The notes below the pieces were generated by a model. It saw only the letters and a list, made by a program, of their open reading frames with translations. It was not told the origin of the DNA and searched no databases. Below, piece after piece: positions 22,015 through 60,165 of a DNA stretch of 64,000 bases. The stretch comes from Kaistella sp. SH40-3 (GTDB taxonomy: Bacteria > Bacteroidota > Bacteroidia > Flavobacteriales > Weeksellaceae), in assembly GCF_030686865.1 (NCBI RefSeq), contig NZ_JAQYUS010000006.1, positions 62,001-126,000 on the forward strand. The letters run 5' to 3'. How positions within the stretch are numbered: the first letter of the stretch is position 1; every line of letters begins with the position of its first letter. Position numbers and translations under genes: made by a program.

Positions 22015-22145
22015 TCTCATTCTTCGATTTGGAATGGAAATCCTTTTTTCTGTACTTTCGTCTTTAGACCAGAGTGCAGAAAAAAGATTGTAATGGAAAG
22101 CGGGACCGAAATTTCGAAGAAGCGAAAATTTTGTTGCTCCAAAAA
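22015..22145. repeat. Interspersed repeat element, copy 2
   Basis: This lies within the 423-base gap 21726-22148. The pair TGGAAATCCTTTTT and AAAAAAGATTG...GGAAAGCGGGAC surrounds a hairpin, matching the copy at 56905-57005 (GCGGAAATCC, AAAAAAAGATTGGGAGCGG). The rest of the gap has only a small AAACCTTCAA/TTGAAGGTTT hairpin near 21868-21908. No gene is seen. Confidence 0.55.
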
Positions 22146-31695: not shown

Positions 31696-32589
31696 ATGCT
31701 AAAGCGAACCATTTTATTAGAGAACAAAACTTCGGTAAGTACGAAAAATCTACAAATCGTCATCCAAACAGAAATGCGGGAAAGCACGATCCCGGCTGAA
31801 GATATTGGTTACTTGGTCATCGATCATCCACAAGTTTTTGTGAGTATTCCTGCAATGAATTTATTGATTGAAAATAATGCAGCAATTGTTGTTTGTGGAA
31901 ACAATCATTTACCGAACGGAATGTTCCTAAACCTCAACAGCCATCACATACAGCAGGAGGTTTTTCGAAACCAGATGGAAGCAAGTTTGCCATTGAAAAA
32001 GCAACTATGGCAACAAACCGCTATGGAAAAAATTAGAAATCAGGGACTATTATTAGAACGAATAACTGGCGAAAAGAATAGTTTTGATTTTATAATGTCC
32101 AAGGTTTTGAGTGGTGACACTTCTAATATGGAAGGAGTTGCTGCCAATATGTACTGGAAAACATTCTTTGAACATTGCGATATTAAAGTTAAAAGAGAAC
32201 GATTTGGAAATTTTCCTAATAATTTCTTGAATTACGGTTATGCAATTTTGCGAGCAGCAACAGCAAGATCTCTATCCGGAAGCGGACTTTTGAATACTTT
32301 AGGAATTCATCACAGAAATAAATACAATGCTTATGCTTTGGCAGATGATATGATGGAACCTTACCGACCGCTGGTTGATGAAAAAGTTTTTGAATTAATT
32401 GCAAAGAGTGATGAGCAAGAACTTACGACCTCAACGAAGGCTGAGTTTCTAAAAATCCTGACGCAAACCGTGTACTTCAACGAAGAGAAAAGTCCATTGA
32501 TGATTGGTCTGCAAAGAAGCGCAAGTTCTTTGCAGCAATGTTTTACTGGAGAAAAGAAGAAAATTAATTATCCAAAATTATGGATCTAA
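31696..32589 (+). CDS. cas1: CRISPR-associated endonuclease Cas1 (type II)
   Basis: The 297-residue protein starts MLKRTILLENKTSVSTKN, a type II Cas1 opening. The active-site region has E146 in NMEGVAANMYW, the H205-H206 pair in LGIHHRNKYNAYALADDMMEPYRP, and the acidic D217-E221 patch. With Cas2 it integrates new spacers at the leader end of the array. It overlaps cas2 by 10 bases. Orientation is opposite to cas9 and convergent with crRNA transcription. Confidence 0.95.
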   Translation: MLKRTILLENKTSVSTKNLQIVIQTEMRESTIPAEDIGYLVIDHPQVFVSIPAMNLLIENNAAIVVCGNNHLPNGMFLNLNSHHIQQEVFRNQMEASLPLKKQLWQQTAMEKIRNQGLLLERITGEKNSFDFIMSKVLSGDTSNMEGVAANMYWKTFFEHCDIKVKRERFGNFPNNFLNYGYAILRAATARSLSGSGLLNTLGIHHRNKYNAYALADDMMEPYRPLVDEKVFELIAKSDEQELTTSTKAEFLKILTQTVYFNEEKSPLMIGLQRSASSLQQCFTGEKKKINYPKLWI

Positions 32590-32909
32590 ATGGTTACCGA
32601 ATTATGTGGATTTTTGTTTTTTTTGACTTACCGACAGAAACTAAAAAAGACCGACATAATGCGTCGAAATTTAGAACCAATTTATTGAAAGACGGTTTTA
32701 ATATGATGCAATATTCTGTGTATATGCGGCATTGCGCCAGTAGCGAAAGTGCAGATGTACACGAAAAGCGGGTTCAACTATTATTACCACCTTTTGGTAA
32801 AGTGAGTGTTTTGCGAATTACGGATAAACAATTTGGAAATATTATGAATTTTTGGGGAAAAGCAGAAGTTCCTAAACCGCCAGGTCCAGTACAATTGGAA
32901 TTATTTTAG
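32580..32909 (+). CDS. cas2: CRISPR-associated protein Cas2
   Basis: The 109-residue ferredoxin-fold protein has the family motif WIFVFFDLPTETKKDR (D16) and YSVYMRHC. It bridges two Cas1 dimers in the spacer-integration complex. Its start lies inside the end of cas1, a clear sign of coupled translation. No csn2 or cas4 follows, which fits subtype II-C. Confidence 0.95.
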   Translation: MDLNGYRIMWIFVFFDLPTETKKDRHNASKFRTNLLKDGFNMMQYSVYMRHCASSESADVHEKRVQLLLPPFGKVSVLRITDKQFGNIMNFWGKAEVPKPPGPVQLELF

Positions 32910-32912
32910 AAT

Positions 32913-32965
32913 AAAAAAAATGCTTCAATCTTGCTTTATCAGTGCAAAAAAGAAGCATTTTTTTT
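32913..32965. terminator. Bidirectional terminator between cas2 and the array
   Basis: AAAATGCTTC (32917-32926) pairs with GAAGCATTTT (32952-32961), with A and T tracts outside. It can stop cas1-cas2 mRNA from running antisense into the array, and pre-crRNA from running into cas2. Confidence 0.75.
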
Positions 32966-33015
32966 AACGATATTTACTTTTAATTCTTTGATTACTAGAA
33001 GGTAGCGAGCCAACT

Positions 33016-33314
33016 AATATCGTCTTTTCTAATCTTTAATCAAACCACAACGATCATTCCTTTGGCGTAATCGTATGCATTAATATCGTCTTTTCTAATC
33101 TTTAATCAAACCACAACGACTTGCGAACCTATCAGCAAAGTATCTGAAATATCGTCTTTTCTAATCTTTAATCAAACCACAACCGGTGTTAAGCGTGAGT
33201 TTAATCTCTGCGAAATATCGTCTTTTCTAATCTTTAATCAAACCACAACTACTGCTTCCGGTAATGGGAAACCTTTGAAATATCGTCTTTTCTAATCTTT
33301 AATCAAACCACAAC
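33016..33314 (-). CRISPR. Type II-C CRISPR array: 5 repeats, 4 spacers
   Basis: Five identical 36-bp repeats start at 33016, 33082, 33148, 33214 and 33279. Spacers are 30, 30, 30 and 29 bp. On the guide strand (minus) the repeat begins GTTGTGGTTTGATTAAAG and ends GACGATATT. Orientation is set by the tracrRNA at 37.4 kb, whose anti-repeat (TTCTAATCTTTAATC, then TTATCACAAT) pairs with the minus-strand repeat and not with its complement. The expected duplex has a lower stem, a two-by-two U-U internal loop and a 15-bp upper stem. The leader is therefore on the high-coordinate side, next to parE. I noticed no spacer matching elsewhere in the window. Confidence 0.97.
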
Positions 33315-33388
33315 GGAAAATCCGTTGCAGAAAATCGGGACGATTTTCCGTTGTGGTTTGGTTGCTTATGACCTTGAAACAACGATGT
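33304..33388. repeat. Inverted copy of the leader-repeat junction
   Basis: CAAACCACAACGGAAAATC (33304-33322) is matched by its exact reverse complement at 33342-33360. The left arm is the last 11 bases of the fifth repeat plus the 8 adjoining bases. The right arm therefore recreates the junction in the opposite orientation. Beyond it, GAAACAACGAT (33376-33386) resembles the far part of the repeat (GAAAAGACGAT), so the right arm may belong to a worn inverted repeat of about 39 bp. Smaller competing hairpins exist at 33311-33327 and 33330-33348. There is no T tract on either strand, so it is not an ordinary terminator. Confidence 0.8.
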
Positions 33389-33401
33389 CAAGGAATGCGT
33401 A

Positions 33402-33674
33402 TTAATAATTCTGTCTACCAATGATCGTAATAATCTCTATTTCATCACGATCAATTTTATAAAAAATACTATCTACACCGCAGACGCAGAATCGATACAG
33501 AGGATTCTGCTTTGCAATAGGAAACATCAACGGGTTTGATGCAATTTTATCAAAACAATCATGCAACATATTAAAATATTTGTCGGCTTGCGTTTGTCCG
33601 AACTTAAACCGCCCATATTCGTAAATTCGCCACAAATCTTCTTTCGCCTCCTGGCTTAAAAAATAGTTATTCAT
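33402..33674 (-). CDS. parE: ParE/RelE-superfamily toxin
   Basis: The 90-residue protein has the ParE pattern: LSQEAKEDLWRIYEYG, then GQTQADKYFNMLHDCFDKIASNP, and a C-terminal beta strand run YKIDRDEIEIITIIGRQNY. ParE toxins poison DNA gyrase, while related RelE toxins cut mRNA. Sequence alone does not separate the two activities here, though the first helices favour ParE. It overlaps the antitoxin gene by 8 bases and reads toward the CRISPR array. Confidence 0.85.
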   Translation of the reverse strand: MNNYFLSQEAKEDLWRIYEYGRFKFGQTQADKYFNMLHDCFDKIASNPLMFPIAKQNPLYRFCVCGVDSIFYKIDRDEIEIITIIGRQNY

Positions 33675-33912
33675 TTGAAAATCTACCTTTAAATTCCGCT
33701 AATAACTCTTCTCTTGTTTGCTTTTTTGCGACGCCACTTTTTTCTCCACGCTCCAGTTTCATAAGCACATAATCATCATAAGCTTCTCGTTCTCTCGCTT
33801 GTTTTATCAAATAATTTACCGCTTCACTTTTACTGTTAAACTCTTCAGCATCAATCTGGTTTTTTAACCATTCATCATTTTGTTTTGCTAATGTAATACT
33901 TTGTCTTGCCAT
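33667..33912 (-). CDS. parD: ParD-like ribbon-helix-helix antitoxin
   Basis: The 81-residue protein begins with a ribbon-helix-helix DNA-binding domain (MARQSITLAKQNDEWLKNQI, NSKSEAVNYLIKQAR). A charged C-terminal tail follows that should wrap the toxin. Antitoxin-first order and an 8-base overlap are typical of parDE. An 18-bp palindrome lies 17 bases upstream and probably is its operator. The gene starts 50 bases after the cas9 stop on the same strand. Confidence 0.85.
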   Translation of the reverse strand: MARQSITLAKQNDEWLKNQIDAEEFNSKSEAVNYLIKQAREREAYDDYVLMKLERGEKSGVAKKQTREELLAEFKGRFSNE

Positions 33913-33962: not shown

Positions 33963-36900
33963 CTATATTTTTTGAATTTTTCCTGAGACTGAAATTGTTA
34001 CTTTTATAACATTATTTGAAACAATCCCTTTGATTCCCATTCTTTTTTCTTCAATTTTATTGTTAACTGATGATGTTATTGCATATCTAAAGGAATAATC
34101 ATTTTGTGAAGTTTTCTGTACACGATACAAATGCTCTTTCAAATGATAATAATCTGGATTTTCCCAATTTATTTCATCATCATTTAATCCTAACAAAAAC
34201 ATATCATTGATTTGCAATGTTGTAATTATTTCTTTGCCATCAAATGGTAATTTATAAACTGGTTCTCCTGTTCTTTTTCTTTCTACAACTGTCCAAAACG
34301 TAATAACATCTTCTTTTAGATTTCCTTTTTCATCCTTATAAATTAAAACGTGGTGATTATTTCTAGGGTTTACCCATTGGTTAAGATTATCTTTCAATTT
34401 TTCTGCACCACTAAAATTTTCTCGCATTCTCACTTTTAAAATTGGAACTGGCTTTCCATTTTGGTTAGGCAAGAAAATTTGTGGTACTTTCATTCCGTTT
34501 TCATCTGCAATAAAAAATGTATTTGCAGGAATTTTATCTTTTACTAAGCCACCTAATTCTTGAATTCTTTTTAAAATTAATTTTCTAGTTGTTTCATCAA
34601 CCACTTTTTCTAATTGTTTTAATGTCGTTAAAGAGTCAATTGGTTTCCGTACATGAAACGCTTCTTCACCATTGAAATTTCTTTTTCCAAAAACAGTTTC
34701 TTTATGCAATTGCCCTCTCGCTGCTACACCAACATTTTTATATTTTTTACCATTTTTTTCTGTAATATGCGTTCTAGTTGTAATATCATTAGATAGTTTC
34801 TTATGAGAAACCAGAATATTTTCTACTGCAATATCGGCGTCACTCACAAAAGATTCCCAAGGCAATGGAAAAATTTTCATTTCATAACTTCTGTTATACC
34901 TGTTCCACTTTGATAATTCCTGAACATAAGATAATTTTGTACAAGCCATTACCAAAGCGTCTATGGCATGATGACGATGATCTTCTCTTGTTTTTACATT
35001 ATCATCATTCAACAAACTGTTTAAACCCCATTTATGACGAAGGTTAGATGTTGCTTGTCCAGGAGAAACAATCACTTTTGTGCAAATTTTTGACAAATAG
35101 TTTTTCGCCTCTTTACTGATATATCGCGTATCATTTAACTGGCGAGAAGAAAAATCATCATCAAATTTTTGTTTTACAAATTGTTTGAATTTATGGTAAG
35201 CATTCGGATATTCTTTGGTGTCATAAAATAATCTTAAGGCTCTTTCTTTTATTGATGCCCAATTTTGTTCGTCACTTCCATAAAATTCGAAAGGTGTTTT
35301 GTCTCCTTTTTTCCTATTTTCATCTGCAAAACAAAGCGTTTTATTTCCAAAACTATCGTTCAAAGAACGACTCCACGGATGAATGTGTTCTATTTGCACC
35401 TCACCAGAAAATAATTGTGAAACAGAAATTGGTTTCCCTGTATACGGACAGGTTTTTTTACATTCTTCCCAAAGTTTATAGAGTAAAATATTATCATGTG
35501 TAATTCGAGTACCCAATTCATTCAACCTATTTTTTACTCGATCATTTTCCCGCTCTAACCTTTGATTATCTTTTCTGATTTTATGACGTTGAGATTTTGA
35601 AATTTTTAAATCCCTAGCCATTTCTACTTTTATCTCGTCAATTTTACCATGTTCACTTATAAGTTCGTTCACTAATTTTCGCAATTCAAATAAAGCAGTG
35701 ATTACAACTGGATTTCTAATGGCTTGAATTTCTTTATCTGCCTCTTTTCCTAAAGGTAATTTTTCTAATAATTCTTGTACATCAATTGAGGCTGAATGAT
35801 GATACAACTTTCTCAATTGCTTTTCTGAAACAGTATAATCCTTTCGCAAAATATCTTTAACAATTTCAATAAAACCACCTTTGTTTTTGGAACGAACTAT
35901 TTCATTAATATTATCAAAGAAGAAATATCTTTTCTCCTCAGACAGATTTTGCCATTCATTGCCAAAAACATTTTTTATTCCTCCTAAAACTACAGCAACA
36001 TCATAAGTGTAACCCATTTTTAGAAACGGTAAAATATTCAAAATTGCTTTTCTACTTAAACTAGCATAGCCATCTTTTACATTAAATTTTGAAATACTTT
36101 CTGCTTGTTCTTCTGTGAAATTCCAATTCTTTAATGCGTATTCTTTCAAATTAGATTTGCTGTCAAAAAAATATAAAACGTGCCAAATATCTTCTTGCTC
36201 TTTTTCGGAAAAATCAAACCATTTTTTACCAAAATATTTTTTGTTTGATAAGTTTGAAATTGTATATGCACCAACTATTTGGTCATCATCTTTATAATTG
36301 AATTTAAACTCAGTACTTTCTTTTCCTATAGATTTTCTTAATTTTTTAAAATCTAATTTTTCCTTTTTAATTGGTAAACACATTAATTCATAAGCAAATT
36401 TCTCCTTCTCTTCTTGCGAAATTTTCTTCCCGTTATACTCCACCGTATTTACCCATTCCCAAACTCTACGTTTTTCATTGGGAATCGCACTGATTGGGCA
36501 TTTAGTTTTGGTAGGTTCAAAAGAACAATTTCCAACTAAATGTTTTTGCGAGCGAAGTGGTCTTTGATGAAATAAAATTCCATCTTCTTTGTAATTATCT
36601 AATTTTCGACCGCCAAACAGCGTTTTTAAATCATCATTAAATTGAGAATAATATTGCTTTTGGTTTTCCCAAATCAATTCAAATTCATCAACATACATTT
36701 TACGAGTTGTATATCTGTTTCTAATTCTTTCTAATCCATCTTGAAACGGCTCATTTTCTTTTGGATAAACCTCAGAAAGATAAGTACCCAAAGTTTTACC
36801 TTCAATATGTTCTTGGGTTTTTGTAATCCCTATTTTTCCTTCTTTTGCGTTTCCTTTAAAAATTATCCCATCATCAGTTCCGCCTTTTCTACTATTGCTT

Positions 36901-37334
36901 AAAAACCCACGTCTTTGAATTAAATGATAAAATATTCTACCAATTTCTCCCAAAGAAAGTTTCTCATTCAATGCTTTTTTACGCAGTTCATAGGGATTTA
37001 ATGAAAACCAAACTGCTAATTTTTCCTCTGGAAATTTTTTTGCTTTTTTCCATTCTCTAAAATCCTTTGAATTTAAAGGACACATCTCATTTTCAGAAAG
37101 TGCTTTTAATAAAATTTGCTTTCTTAATCTTCTTCTAAAAAACTGTCTTCTTACTCCTCTTGCTCCAGTTCTACTTGCATTTTTTGACATTTCTCTCCCT
37201 TCTCCTTCAGCTAAATTATCAACACCCATCGGGAATATTCTACTTCCAATTCCAACTATTTTATTCTCTACATCATCCACTATCGCCCAGCCAATCGAGT
37301 TTGTTCCTAAATCTAAACCTAAAATTTTTGCCAT
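33963..37334 (-). CDS. cas9: CRISPR-associated endonuclease Cas9, subtype II-C
   Basis: The 1123-residue protein is in the compact II-C size class. RuvC-I has D8 (ILGLDLGTNSIGWA). The bridge helix is Arg-rich (SRTGARGVRRQFFRRRLRKQ, 54-73). RuvC-II has E571 in KVEMARDL. HNH spans about 625-690 with H650 in QIEHIHPWS, N664 in FGNK and N673 in DENRKKGD. RuvC-III has H788-H789 and D792 in RHHAIDALVMA. The C-terminal part from about 830 is the wedge and PAM-interacting region. All catalytic residues are present, so it should cut both strands under dual-RNA guidance. The gene starts 93 bases from the tracrRNA start on the other strand and is separated from cas1-cas2 by the array and parDE. Confidence 0.97.
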   Translation of the reverse strand: MAKILGLDLGTNSIGWAIVDDVENKIVGIGSRIFPMGVDNLAEGEGREMSKNASRTGARGVRRQFFRRRLRKQILLKALSENEMCPLNSKDFREWKKAKKFPEEKLAVWFSLNPYELRKKALNEKLSLGEIGRIFYHLIQRRGFLSNSRKGGTDDGIIFKGNAKEGKIGITKTQEHIEGKTLGTYLSEVYPKENEPFQDGLERIRNRYTTRKMYVDEFELIWENQKQYYSQFNDDLKTLFGGRKLDNYKEDGILFHQRPLRSQKHLVGNCSFEPTKTKCPISAIPNEKRRVWEWVNTVEYNGKKISQEEKEKFAYELMCLPIKKEKLDFKKLRKSIGKESTEFKFNYKDDDQIVGAYTISNLSNKKYFGKKWFDFSEKEQEDIWHVLYFFDSKSNLKEYALKNWNFTEEQAESISKFNVKDGYASLSRKAILNILPFLKMGYTYDVAVVLGGIKNVFGNEWQNLSEEKRYFFFDNINEIVRSKNKGGFIEIVKDILRKDYTVSEKQLRKLYHHSASIDVQELLEKLPLGKEADKEIQAIRNPVVITALFELRKLVNELISEHGKIDEIKVEMARDLKISKSQRHKIRKDNQRLERENDRVKNRLNELGTRITHDNILLYKLWEECKKTCPYTGKPISVSQLFSGEVQIEHIHPWSRSLNDSFGNKTLCFADENRKKGDKTPFEFYGSDEQNWASIKERALRLFYDTKEYPNAYHKFKQFVKQKFDDDFSSRQLNDTRYISKEAKNYLSKICTKVIVSPGQATSNLRHKWGLNSLLNDDNVKTREDHRHHAIDALVMACTKLSYVQELSKWNRYNRSYEMKIFPLPWESFVSDADIAVENILVSHKKLSNDITTRTHITEKNGKKYKNVGVAARGQLHKETVFGKRNFNGEEAFHVRKPIDSLTTLKQLEKVVDETTRKLILKRIQELGGLVKDKIPANTFFIADENGMKVPQIFLPNQNGKPVPILKVRMRENFSGAEKLKDNLNQWVNPRNNHHVLIYKDEKGNLKEDVITFWTVVERKRTGEPVYKLPFDGKEIITTLQINDMFLLGLNDDEINWENPDYYHLKEHLYRVQKTSQNDYSFRYAITSSVNNKIEEKRMGIKGIVSNNVIKVTISVSGKIQKI

Positions 37335-37393: not shown

Positions 37394-37422
37394 TTTGATT
37401 AAAATAATATTTTATATATTTG
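37394..37422 (+). promoter_or_regulatory. tracrRNA promoter
   Basis: TTTG (37394-37397), 17 bases, then TATATTTG (37415-37422) is a close match to the Bacteroidota promoter. The start should fall near 37427. Confidence 0.7.
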
Positions 37423-37462
37423 TGATAAGATAATTTTATTCTAATCTTTAATCTTATCACAA
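37420..37462. repeat. 12-bp inverted repeat spanning tracrRNA promoter and anti-repeat
   Basis: TTGTGATAAGAT (37420-37431) is the exact reverse complement of ATCTTATCACAA (37451-37462). The second arm is the anti-repeat. The first overlaps the -7 box and the start site. The first arm pairs with the anti-repeat better than the CRISPR repeat does at the internal-loop positions. Confidence 0.85.
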
Positions 37463-37519
37463 TAAGGCTATATGCCGTAGATGAAAATCTTTAGTCCTGC
37501 TTCGGTGGGACTTTTTTTA
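37427..37519 (+). ncRNA. tracrRNA
   Basis: The anti-repeat is TTCTAATCTTTAATC (37439-37453), exactly complementary to the CRISPR repeat. TTATCACAAT (37454-37463) closes the lower stem. AAGGC then begins the nexus, GGCTATATGCC, as in other II-C tracrRNAs. A small hairpin AGATGAAAATCT (37480-37491) follows. The terminator is an 8-bp stem with a UUCG loop (37493-37512) and a T tract. It pairs with crRNA for RNase III processing and Cas9 loading. Confidence 0.92.
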
Positions 37520-37646
37520 TTTGTAAATTTCATTTTTGCGAGAAGAATTGAAATTTTTGAATCATTCTATTTAATTCATTGCCAATAGGTCACTTTTGAC
37601 TAGTCCTGAAAAATTAATACAGATTATAGGGTAAAAATAATTAATT

Positions 37647-59814: not shown

Positions 59815-60165
59815 TAACCACACAAGTCACAAAAGTTTTTAATGGCTGAAGTTTTAAATAATGCTGCTGAAAGTTCACAAAACGTCTATTGAAAAGTTAT
59901 TAAACCACAAAAGTCACAAAAGTTTTTAATGGCTGAAGTTTTAAATAATGCTGCTGAAAGTTCACAAAACGTCTATTTAAAAGTTTTTAAACCACAAAAG
60001 TCACAAAAGTTTTTAATGGCTAAACTTTAAAATAATGCTGCTGAAAGTTCACAAAACGTCTATTGAAAAGTTATTTAAACAAAAAGTCACAAAAGTTTTT
60101 AATGGCTGAAGTTTAAAATAACGCTGATGAAAAGTTCACAAAATATTTCTTGAAAATTTTTGACC
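59815..60165 (+). repeat. Tandem array, about 4 units of 87 bp
   Basis: The word GTCACAAAAGTTTTTAATGG recurs at 59826, 59913, 60000 and 60086, a period of 87, 87 and 86. Each unit continues AATAATGCTGCTGAAAGTTC, then ACAAAACGTCTAT. The first two units are nearly identical and the fourth is the most worn. It occupies most of the 542-base gap between the TSUP fusion and kbl. No frame persists through it, so it is non-coding. Confidence 0.9.

Follow-up and report, generated by a model that had tools for sequence, protein, structure and literature searches.

The inverted copy that adjoins the CRISPR array of Kaistella sp. SH40-3 probably belongs to a leader-repeat RNA hairpin as its 5′ arm and serves to suppress the formation of extraneous crRNA (ecrRNA) from the first repeat, as judged from sequence comparison and predicted folding. 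In the window, that is, the whole stretch of 64,000 nucleotides under analysis, 19 bases, consisting of 11 from the first guide-strand repeat and the 8 flanking it, recur inverted 19 bases away; the copy, already described in an earlier note on this DNA, is indeed exact (33304-33322, CAAACCACAACGGAAAATC, versus 33342-33360, GATTTTCCGTTGTGGTTTG). According to the proposed mechanism, transcription from cas9 would read through into the array, with boxA-dependent antitermination helping, and the arm, transcribed just ahead of the first repeat, would fold onto it at once. The masked repeat would then not pair with tracrRNA and would stay unused by RNase III and Cas9, so that no spacerless "extraneous" crRNA would be left to compete for Cas9. 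The same helix would lock the bases that immediately precede the repeat, which would otherwise form the end of the ecrRNA guide.

Organization of the CRISPR-Cas locus

The locus comprises the parts of a type II-C system, namely Cas9 with HNH and RuvC domains, Cas1, Cas2, and a tracrRNA; the Pfam scan of nine ORFs around it has neither csn2 nor cas4 among its matches. Read on the minus strand from downstream to upstream, the order is array, leader, parE (overlapped by a small ORF), and cas9; the tracrRNA lies beyond cas9 on the plus strand. The features are as follows.

31696-32589, plus strand: cas1 (Pfam Cas_Cas1)
32580-32909, plus strand: cas2 (Pfam CRISPR_Cas2)
32912-32966, no strand assigned: inverted repeat bordered by A/T runs, situated between the array and cas2 and resembling a terminator on either strand (by eye)
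32967-33015, minus strand: cas2-side array flank, AGTTGG... with AATATCGT 41 nt from the last repeat (consensus over 68 arrays)
33016-33314, minus strand: CRISPR array, five repeats of 36 nt and four spacers (repeat reading)
33279-33314, minus strand: first ("extra") guide-strand repeat, with its nt 1-11 (33304-33314) in the hairpin (sequence)
33315-33322, minus strand: 3′ half of the leader-only helix extension, abutting the first repeat; it would also supply the repeat-proximal end of an extraneous guide
33323-33341, minus strand: loop of the leader-repeat hairpin, containing GATTTTC, which can pair with 33342-33348 (smaller hairpin)
33342-33349, minus strand: 5′ half of the leader-only helix extension (GGAAAATC on the guide strand), pairing with 33315-33322
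33350-33360, minus strand: inverted arm, an anti-repeat complementary to nt 1-11 of the first guide-strand repeat (exact inverted copy)
33385-33396, minus strand: boxA-like motif (ATTCCTTGACAT, by resemblance), right behind the parE stop codon
33402-33674, minus strand: parE-type toxin gene, the last gene ahead of the leader (Pfam ParE_toxin)
33667-33912, minus strand: small ORF overlapping parE, probable antitoxin (by position; no Pfam match)
33963-37334, minus strand: cas9, 1123 aa, in the direction of the array (Pfam HNH_4 and RuvC_III)
37440-37520, plus strand: tracrRNA with anti-repeat (37440-37463), core and its own terminator (sequence)

The ParE-type toxin gene and its partner ORF (33402-33912) lie between cas9 and the array; the pair is missing in G035, the leader of which is otherwise nearly identical. 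In F. columnare, parDE is likewise located between cas9 and the array (PMC8092290). Three Cas9 proteins that differ strongly from one another, of 1123, 1535, and 1560 aa, occupy this locus in members of a single genus (33963-37334 in the window, 3593-8200 in L038, and 8943-13625 in L037), and in these three loci the Cas1 proteins are 89-97% identical and the tracrRNAs nearly the same. From these sequences, it looks as if cas9 had been exchanged as a cassette within the genus. Upstream of the tracrRNA core, at 37419-37463, TTGTGATAAGAT pairs with ATCTTATCACAA in the tracrRNA anti-repeat (12 bp), and the 5′ copy overlaps the promoter-like TATATTTG (TAnnTTTG). The possibility that TTGTGATAAGAT ahead of the anti-repeat forms a natural single guide was set aside, since the 5′ copy overlaps that motif and, by eye, is missing from most of the 54/69 loci with a tracrRNA core. 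A Flavo-1 RNA at 22016-22111 is the sole Rfam match in the whole window at the gathering score, and the leader hairpin matches no Rfam family at that score. Four spaced copies of AACCACAAAAGTCACAAAAGTTTTTAATGGCTGAAGTTT at 59816-60114, flagged by the array finder, are not CRISPR-like on sight.

Predicted structure of the leader-repeat hairpin

The complementarity in the window exceeds what base composition provides. The reverse complement of repeat nt 1-11 is matched at 11/11 positions in the flank, a result equalled by 0/200 dinucleotide shuffles, and the strand from 33279 to 33420 folds better than 198/200 shuffles. Furthermore, the arms lengthen to 22 nt with one mismatch (33301-33322 and 33342-33363). 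The three overlapping hairpins that had been proposed to compete (33304-33360, 33311-33327, and 33330-33348) all exist as sequence, but they are far from equivalent: the long one reaches -30.6 kcal/mol, versus -13.2 kcal/mol for the fold with two short hairpins in the same 72 nt of the guide strand. The structure is not a plain terminator, as the earlier note had recognized from the missing T tract; the helix is followed by repeat sequence (GAUUAAAG...), without the U tract of a Rho-independent terminator.

The alternative fold is not peculiar to the window. In 33304-33360 and in 13 other leaders of the class with an arm-to-repeat distance of 33-38 nt, it consists of a GAAAATC/GATTTTC hairpin, kept in 12/14 leaders of this class, and a CAACGG/CCGTTG hairpin, which involves repeat nt 1-4 and is kept in 11/14; variants such as AAAAGCG/CGCTTTT occur. 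This two-hairpin fold is perhaps a co-transcriptional intermediate. A transcription switch, in which competing hairpins control read-through as an attenuator or terminator, would draw on this conservation in 11-12/14 leaders, but the alternative fold is 17 kcal/mol weaker, a U tract is missing, and in the other two classes the inner part seems, by eye, to be nested or short and not to compete; such a switch is most improbable. The earlier suggestion that folding matters here survives in a changed form, with the inverted arm able to pair with the first repeat as RNA.

In the window, the predicted RNA hairpin (-30.6 kcal/mol over 72 nt) is stronger than the tracrRNA:repeat duplex (-26.8 kcal/mol). 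Being formed in cis and made first, the hairpin would also have a kinetic edge over tracrRNA. The arm was also considered as a tracrRNA anti-repeat itself and rejected: the tracrRNA, with its terminator, sits at 37440-37520, and neither a nexus nor a terminator follows the arm.

Conservation of the inverted arm

The main set was composed of 80 Cas1-clade loci, the best of 127 in named records, together with the window and six further loci, minus two duplicates (L050, the same locus as L045, and L051, the same as L038). The resulting 85 loci gave 69 arrays, with 16 loci holding no usable array. Upstream counts refer to 64 arrays, as the contig ends there in five of the 69 (L055, L074, L085, L095, and L129), and counts in the opposite flanks to 63, the flank of L086 being masked with N. 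An arm was scored when at least 9/11 positions matched the reverse complement of repeat nt 1-11 at most 120 nt upstream of the first repeat. The sister II-C clade, with 47-nt repeats, was represented by 40 loci out of 162 genomes with a Cas1 match, mostly on near-complete contigs, and 35 of these gave an array. A Cas1 search with 8000 hits, 120 of them listed, contributed 14 alignment members and nothing more.

By this measure, the arm is present in 50/64 arrays of the Flavobacterium/Kaistella/Halpernia II-C clade (a set that includes the best 80 of 127 loci), in 0/63 readable opposite flanks of the same clade, and upstream of 0/35 arrays in the sister clade, where one opposite flank out of 35 reaches 9/11 (L162). 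An alignment of related II-C loci, as the earlier note had proposed, finds the arm widely kept, whereas the adjacent 33361-33388 differs between relatives. The faint similarity to a repeat claimed for that stretch does not hold up, its local alignment score being reached by 10% of shuffles. With the arm kept so often, and with no significant repeat similarity beyond it in the window, the suggestion of a relic of a divergent array finds no support.

Folding predictions follow the same distribution. The probability that repeat nt 1-11 pair with the leader averages 0.98 in 48 loci (lowest 0.78). The corresponding means are 0.27 in 16 other loci, 0.46 across 79 internal repeats, and 0.39 among 34 sister-clade arrays. 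High predicted values also occur in some control flanks, namely L060 (0.80) and, in the sister clade, L182 (0.97), L162 (0.87), and L187 (0.82). The 48 loci omit L102 and L127, in which the arm is present and the first repeat interrupted or diverged; loci without the element accordingly number 14 in the arm and repeat-change counts and 16 in the folding and boxA counts.

When 320 genomes of the family were searched at the DNA level, the leader was found in six, including that of the window, and in three of these six, which belong to another genus, the matching part is a segment of 25 nt that extends across the inverted arm. In a sample of 395 genomes of the order, 15 are matched by a covariance model of the element at E <= 0.001. 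All but one of these 15 hits adjoin an array of this repeat, the exception being a weak one (G427, 50 bits) with no such repeat in the locus. Since the window and G227 built the model and other hits may be named loci, this search is a specificity check more than independent evidence. Searches of viral, phage, and plasmid collections gave nothing.

Covariation of the helix

The leaders fall into three classes according to the distance from arm to repeat (22-24, 33-38, and 43-48 nt). In each, the helix runs beyond the repeat into bases that belong to the leader only, as GGAGT/ACTCC, GGAAAATC/GATTTTCC, TGAAAG/CTTTCA, and variants of these. Over the 48 leaders, 312/384 extension positions pair, whereas 2000 partner shuffles gave 245 on average and 272 at most. 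In the 48-row alignment (47 distinct rows), 94.7% of 809 cells pair, versus 32.8-45.4% in slid controls.

The covariation score is 0.143, versus a shuffled mean of 0.076, with 0/500 shuffles as high and slid controls at 0.076 at most; cells changed on both sides number 49, versus a shuffled mean of 20, and occur in the leader-only extension only. Two of the five covariation measures are unremarkable, namely pairs with two-sided change (5; 37/500 shuffles) and further pair types (14; 461/500). As the repeat is nearly invariant, so are the 11 repeat-side pairs, and the two-sided covariation comes from the leader-only extension. RNAalifold alone predicts 13 pairs, with a small covariation term of -0.32.

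Parsimony on a Cas1 tree of 47 loci (L046, which has no Cas1 match, being omitted) counts, for extension pairs 1-8, 7, 1, 0, 7, 8, 5, 1, and 9 two-sided replacements of one pair by another, and 6, 4, 6, 3, 0, 10, 15, and 8 changes by which a pair is gained or lost; swapping of leaders between species would inflate both series. The three leader classes have maybe been exchanged by recombination, so that events and counts are not independent. Collectively, these data indicate that the helix is almost certainly real. It very probably acts as RNA; use of the palindrome at the DNA level is less probable.

Polarity of the array

The terminal repeat differs from the array consensus in 17/64 cases at the first (upstream) end, versus 2/64 at the cas2-side end (Fisher p 3e-4) and 36/1909 for internal repeats; of the two deviant cas2-side repeats, one is an assembly gap of N and the other an insert. 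In the sister clade, the first repeat differs in 22/35 arrays and the cas2-side repeat in 0/35, counts that are approximate because array ends may be off by one degenerate repeat (e.g., L183). Since old repeats decay, the surplus of changes at the upstream end identifies it as the old end of the array. This agrees with reports on relatives. In F. columnare, GTTGT is reported to mark the leader-distal end, with transcription running toward the leader and acquisition at the end away from GTTGT (PMC8092290); in Riemerella, whose 47-bp repeats make it a sister and not a member of the clade, new spacers are said to enter between cas2 and the array (PMC6008519).

The cas2-side flank has a conserved consensus of its own, AGTTGg.ttGTTacCTTCT (68 arrays), and this flank (32967-33015 in the window) is the probable spacer-acquisition leader, as far as its sequence indicates. 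It also bears an inverted copy of the adjoining repeat end, AATATCGT, mostly 41 nt from the last repeat (range 31-42), matched at 7/8 positions or better in 56/68 arrays. As this copy ignores variants of the repeat end (L072, L117, and L122), it possibly represents a fixed DNA signal for Cas1-Cas2. A comparison of 16-mers for shared spacers as a polarity test gave one shared pair, between two arrays.

What the earlier note termed the leader-repeat junction is located upstream with respect to transcription, but this is most likely not the end at which spacers are acquired. The same observations bear on a DNA signal for adaptation, according to which the inverted junction would serve Cas1-Cas2 as a decoy or as a second place of integration, or would be an anchoring palindrome. 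Cas1-Cas2 cut repeat ends, and the repeat-flank junction is copied exactly and inverted, which speaks for such a role. However, the junction lies at the old end, as the first-repeat counts show in both clades; the reported acquisition takes place on the cas2 side in Riemerella (PMC6008519) and away from GTTGT in F. columnare (PMC8092290); the cas2-side flank has its own conserved sequence; the arm-to-repeat distance varies from 22 to 48 nt between species; and the leader-only bases co-vary, changing on both sides of the helix. The proposal of a second or decoy integration site is not borne out, and an adaptation signal of this kind is very unlikely.

First repeats in arrays that lack the arm

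Of the arrays without an arm, 11/14 have a first repeat that deviates from the array consensus, versus 6/50 of those with one (Fisher p 4e-6); three or more differences are seen in 7/14 versus 2/50 (p 2e-4). This distribution is expected if the arm and an altered first repeat are alternative ways of silencing that repeat. In L128, for example, the boxA-like motif runs directly into the second half of the repeat, and both the arm and the 5′ half of the repeat are gone. The correspondence has exceptions: L123 combines an upstream cas9 with an unaltered first repeat and lacks the arm, and in L037, L104, L125, and L126, also without an arm, the difference is a single base, mostly outside the part that adjoins the guide. 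Some of the counted differences are inserts (L072 and L096) or a tracrRNA anti-repeat (L070). First-repeat decay could also result from the loss of the leader instead of replacing it.

Several of these array ends have features of their own. L052 and L070 show no match to the three Cas9 queries, lack the arm, and have a tracrRNA gene at that end, where it abuts the array and runs antisense through the terminal repeat (ATTGTGATAAGATT type; L052 11310-11675 and L070 11325-12011). To judge by sequence, this layout suggests how a terminal repeat can give rise to the anti-repeat of a tracrRNA. A hairpin-like insert (ACAAACACC ... GTGTTTGT) is found in old-end repeats after about repeat nt 10 in L072, L096, L102, and possibly L126 and L127; it is present in several Flavobacterium species and resembles a small mobile or hairpin element that targets the repeat. 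In L046 (9731-9955), the same short insert (CCGAGGAACGAGGTTCGACGAAGTC) interrupts two repeats; the genome concerned (G225) has an array and cas9 but gives no Cas1 match.

Proposed upstream transcription and the boxA-like motif

Transcription from upstream is suggested by the gene order. In 46/48 hairpin loci, cas9 is located upstream and is co-directional with the array; the other two (L063 and L115) hold little upstream DNA and show no match there. The nearest upstream ORF, which ends 71-359 nt ahead of the repeat, is of cas9 size in 29/48 loci and shorter in 18/48, and none was found in 1/48. The motif TAnnTTTG, which we take to be the Bacteroidota -7 promoter motif, occurs in 5/48 leaders, versus upstream of 43/54 tracrRNA cores. 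A leader promoter composed of TTGACA and a -10 element was rejected, as the spacing from TTGACA to the conserved TTAAAC/TAAGCA varies by eye from about 9 to 19 nt. Type II-C arrays are thought to run on repeat-internal promoters, which has been the rule for this subtype so far. The RNA-seq data of F. columnare, amounting to eight reads, are compatible with such promoters (PMC8092290); if they are used, ecrRNA would matter less.

The leaders share a boxA-like motif with the clade consensus GTTC[T/A]TTGACAT, located 55-82 nt ahead of the first repeat in the 48 leaders. At 10/12 positions or more, it is matched in 48/48 hairpin leaders, versus 3/16 others, 15/2400 shuffled leaders, and 2/34 sister-clade flanks. 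The genome of the window carries GATCATTGACATA in its 16S leader, 72 nt upstream of the 16S gene, and the CRISPR motif ATTCCTTGACAT resembles it. Flanks of 16S genes are readable in 7/18 loci, four of them of Kaistella type (GATCATTGACATA) and three of genus g8 (GATCTTTGAAATA); the 16S-leader sequence of genus g8 is a weaker match to the CRISPR motif of its own genus. The CRISPR-leader motif is accordingly named a putative boxA by resemblance only.

The combination of a boxA with a long stem, which is typical of rRNA leaders, also leads to a further interpretation, namely an RNase III processing stem that severs the cas9(-parDE) mRNA from pre-crRNA, with masking of the repeat as a by-product. 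The resemblance of motif and stem to an rRNA leader, the 19 exact pairs in the window (more where the inner hairpin of the TGAAAG class is added), and the cas9-size ORF nearest upstream in 29/48 loci are all consistent with it. However, the GGAGT class pairs over only about 11+5 bp, which is short for RNase III, and the link between a missing arm and first-repeat changes is not predicted by processing. This interpretation is unlikely. It is linked to the preferred reading, in which the hairpin masks the first repeat, by a broader proposal that we put forward tentatively: in this II-C clade, cas9 and the array may constitute one read-through unit with an rRNA-like leader made of boxA and an anti-repeat stem. 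In such a unit, boxA would carry the polymerase across arrays of up to 90 repeats, and the stem would mask the oldest repeat and perhaps let RNase III cut it off.

Comparison with known leader elements

Liao et al. (2022) reportedly described a leader-repeat hairpin in type II-A systems, and Stringer et al. (2020) are said to have described boxA antitermination in CRISPR leaders. According to PMC12080349, leader-repeat hairpins exist in type II-A and none has been identified in II-C; systems of the latter subtype are said to deal with the extra repeat through mutation, through terminators upstream of it, or through guide-trapping hairpins. Similarly, PMC13187072 reports a leader-repeat hairpin for type VI and states that II-C acts by other means.

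The element described here resembles the II-A hairpin in that a leader arm is complementary to the first transcribed repeat (PMC12080349, PMC13187072), in this case in 50/64 arrays. The II-A hairpin interferes with tracrRNA pairing and ecrRNA formation (PMC12080349, PMC13187072), an effect that is here predicted from energies only. Unlike in II-A, the subtype is II-C, the masked repeat is the oldest and not the newest, and the leader sits behind cas9 or parE and bears a boxA-like motif; the element would work like the II-A one but is not one. Since the masked repeat is the oldest, the hairpin, unlike that of II-A, is not expected to favor the newest spacer. Spacer prioritization after the II-A fashion, in which the hairpin speeds maturation of the first crRNA, would fit the shared geometry (PMC12080349, PMC13187072), but in II-C the adjoining spacer is the oldest, as indicated by the repeat changes at the array ends and by PMC12080349, so that no benefit is evident; little probability is assigned to it.

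In type VI-B and its relatives, a leader arm likewise masks the first repeat against ecrRNA (PMC13187072), as is proposed here; that system uses Cas13 without tracrRNA, with the arm competing with an internal repeat hairpin, whereas the present one has Cas9 and a tracrRNA. With the II-C devices against ecrRNA described in PMC12080349, the element shares the problem and the repeat concerned, and altered extra repeats occur here too; it differs from the guide-trapping and terminator devices in that the helix takes in the repeat itself and is followed by no U tract. Guide-trapping helices, described as about 8 bp within the 25-nt ecrRNA guide (PMC12080349), might cover the leader-only half of this helix, in which case some of these loci may already have been counted there unnamed.

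BoxA elements in CRISPR leaders are known, with GTTCTTTAAAA at -58 and -90 used in one study (PMC7862264). The present leaders share a motif of the GTTCTTT type, placed 55-82 nt before the first repeat, but differ from those of PMC7862264 in belonging to Bacteroidota and to II-C, in lying between cas9 or parE and the array, and in joining the putative boxA to a repeat-masking hairpin. In the open-licence literature, searched by titles and the beginnings of abstracts, no report of the element in Flavobacteriia was found.

Biological implications

A conserved, covarying hairpin in dozens of II-C loci of Flavobacteriia would extend the leader-repeat principle to a third group, and would suggest that the need for such a hairpin follows from upstream read-through and not from the site of spacer acquisition. 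It would also call into question the rule that II-C arrays use repeat promoters, and it would account for otherwise puzzling palindromes next to these arrays. If the tentative one-unit proposal is true, the clade departs from the repeat-internal promoters of II-C, and the leader-repeat hairpin would look like a further, separate origin after those in II-A and VI.
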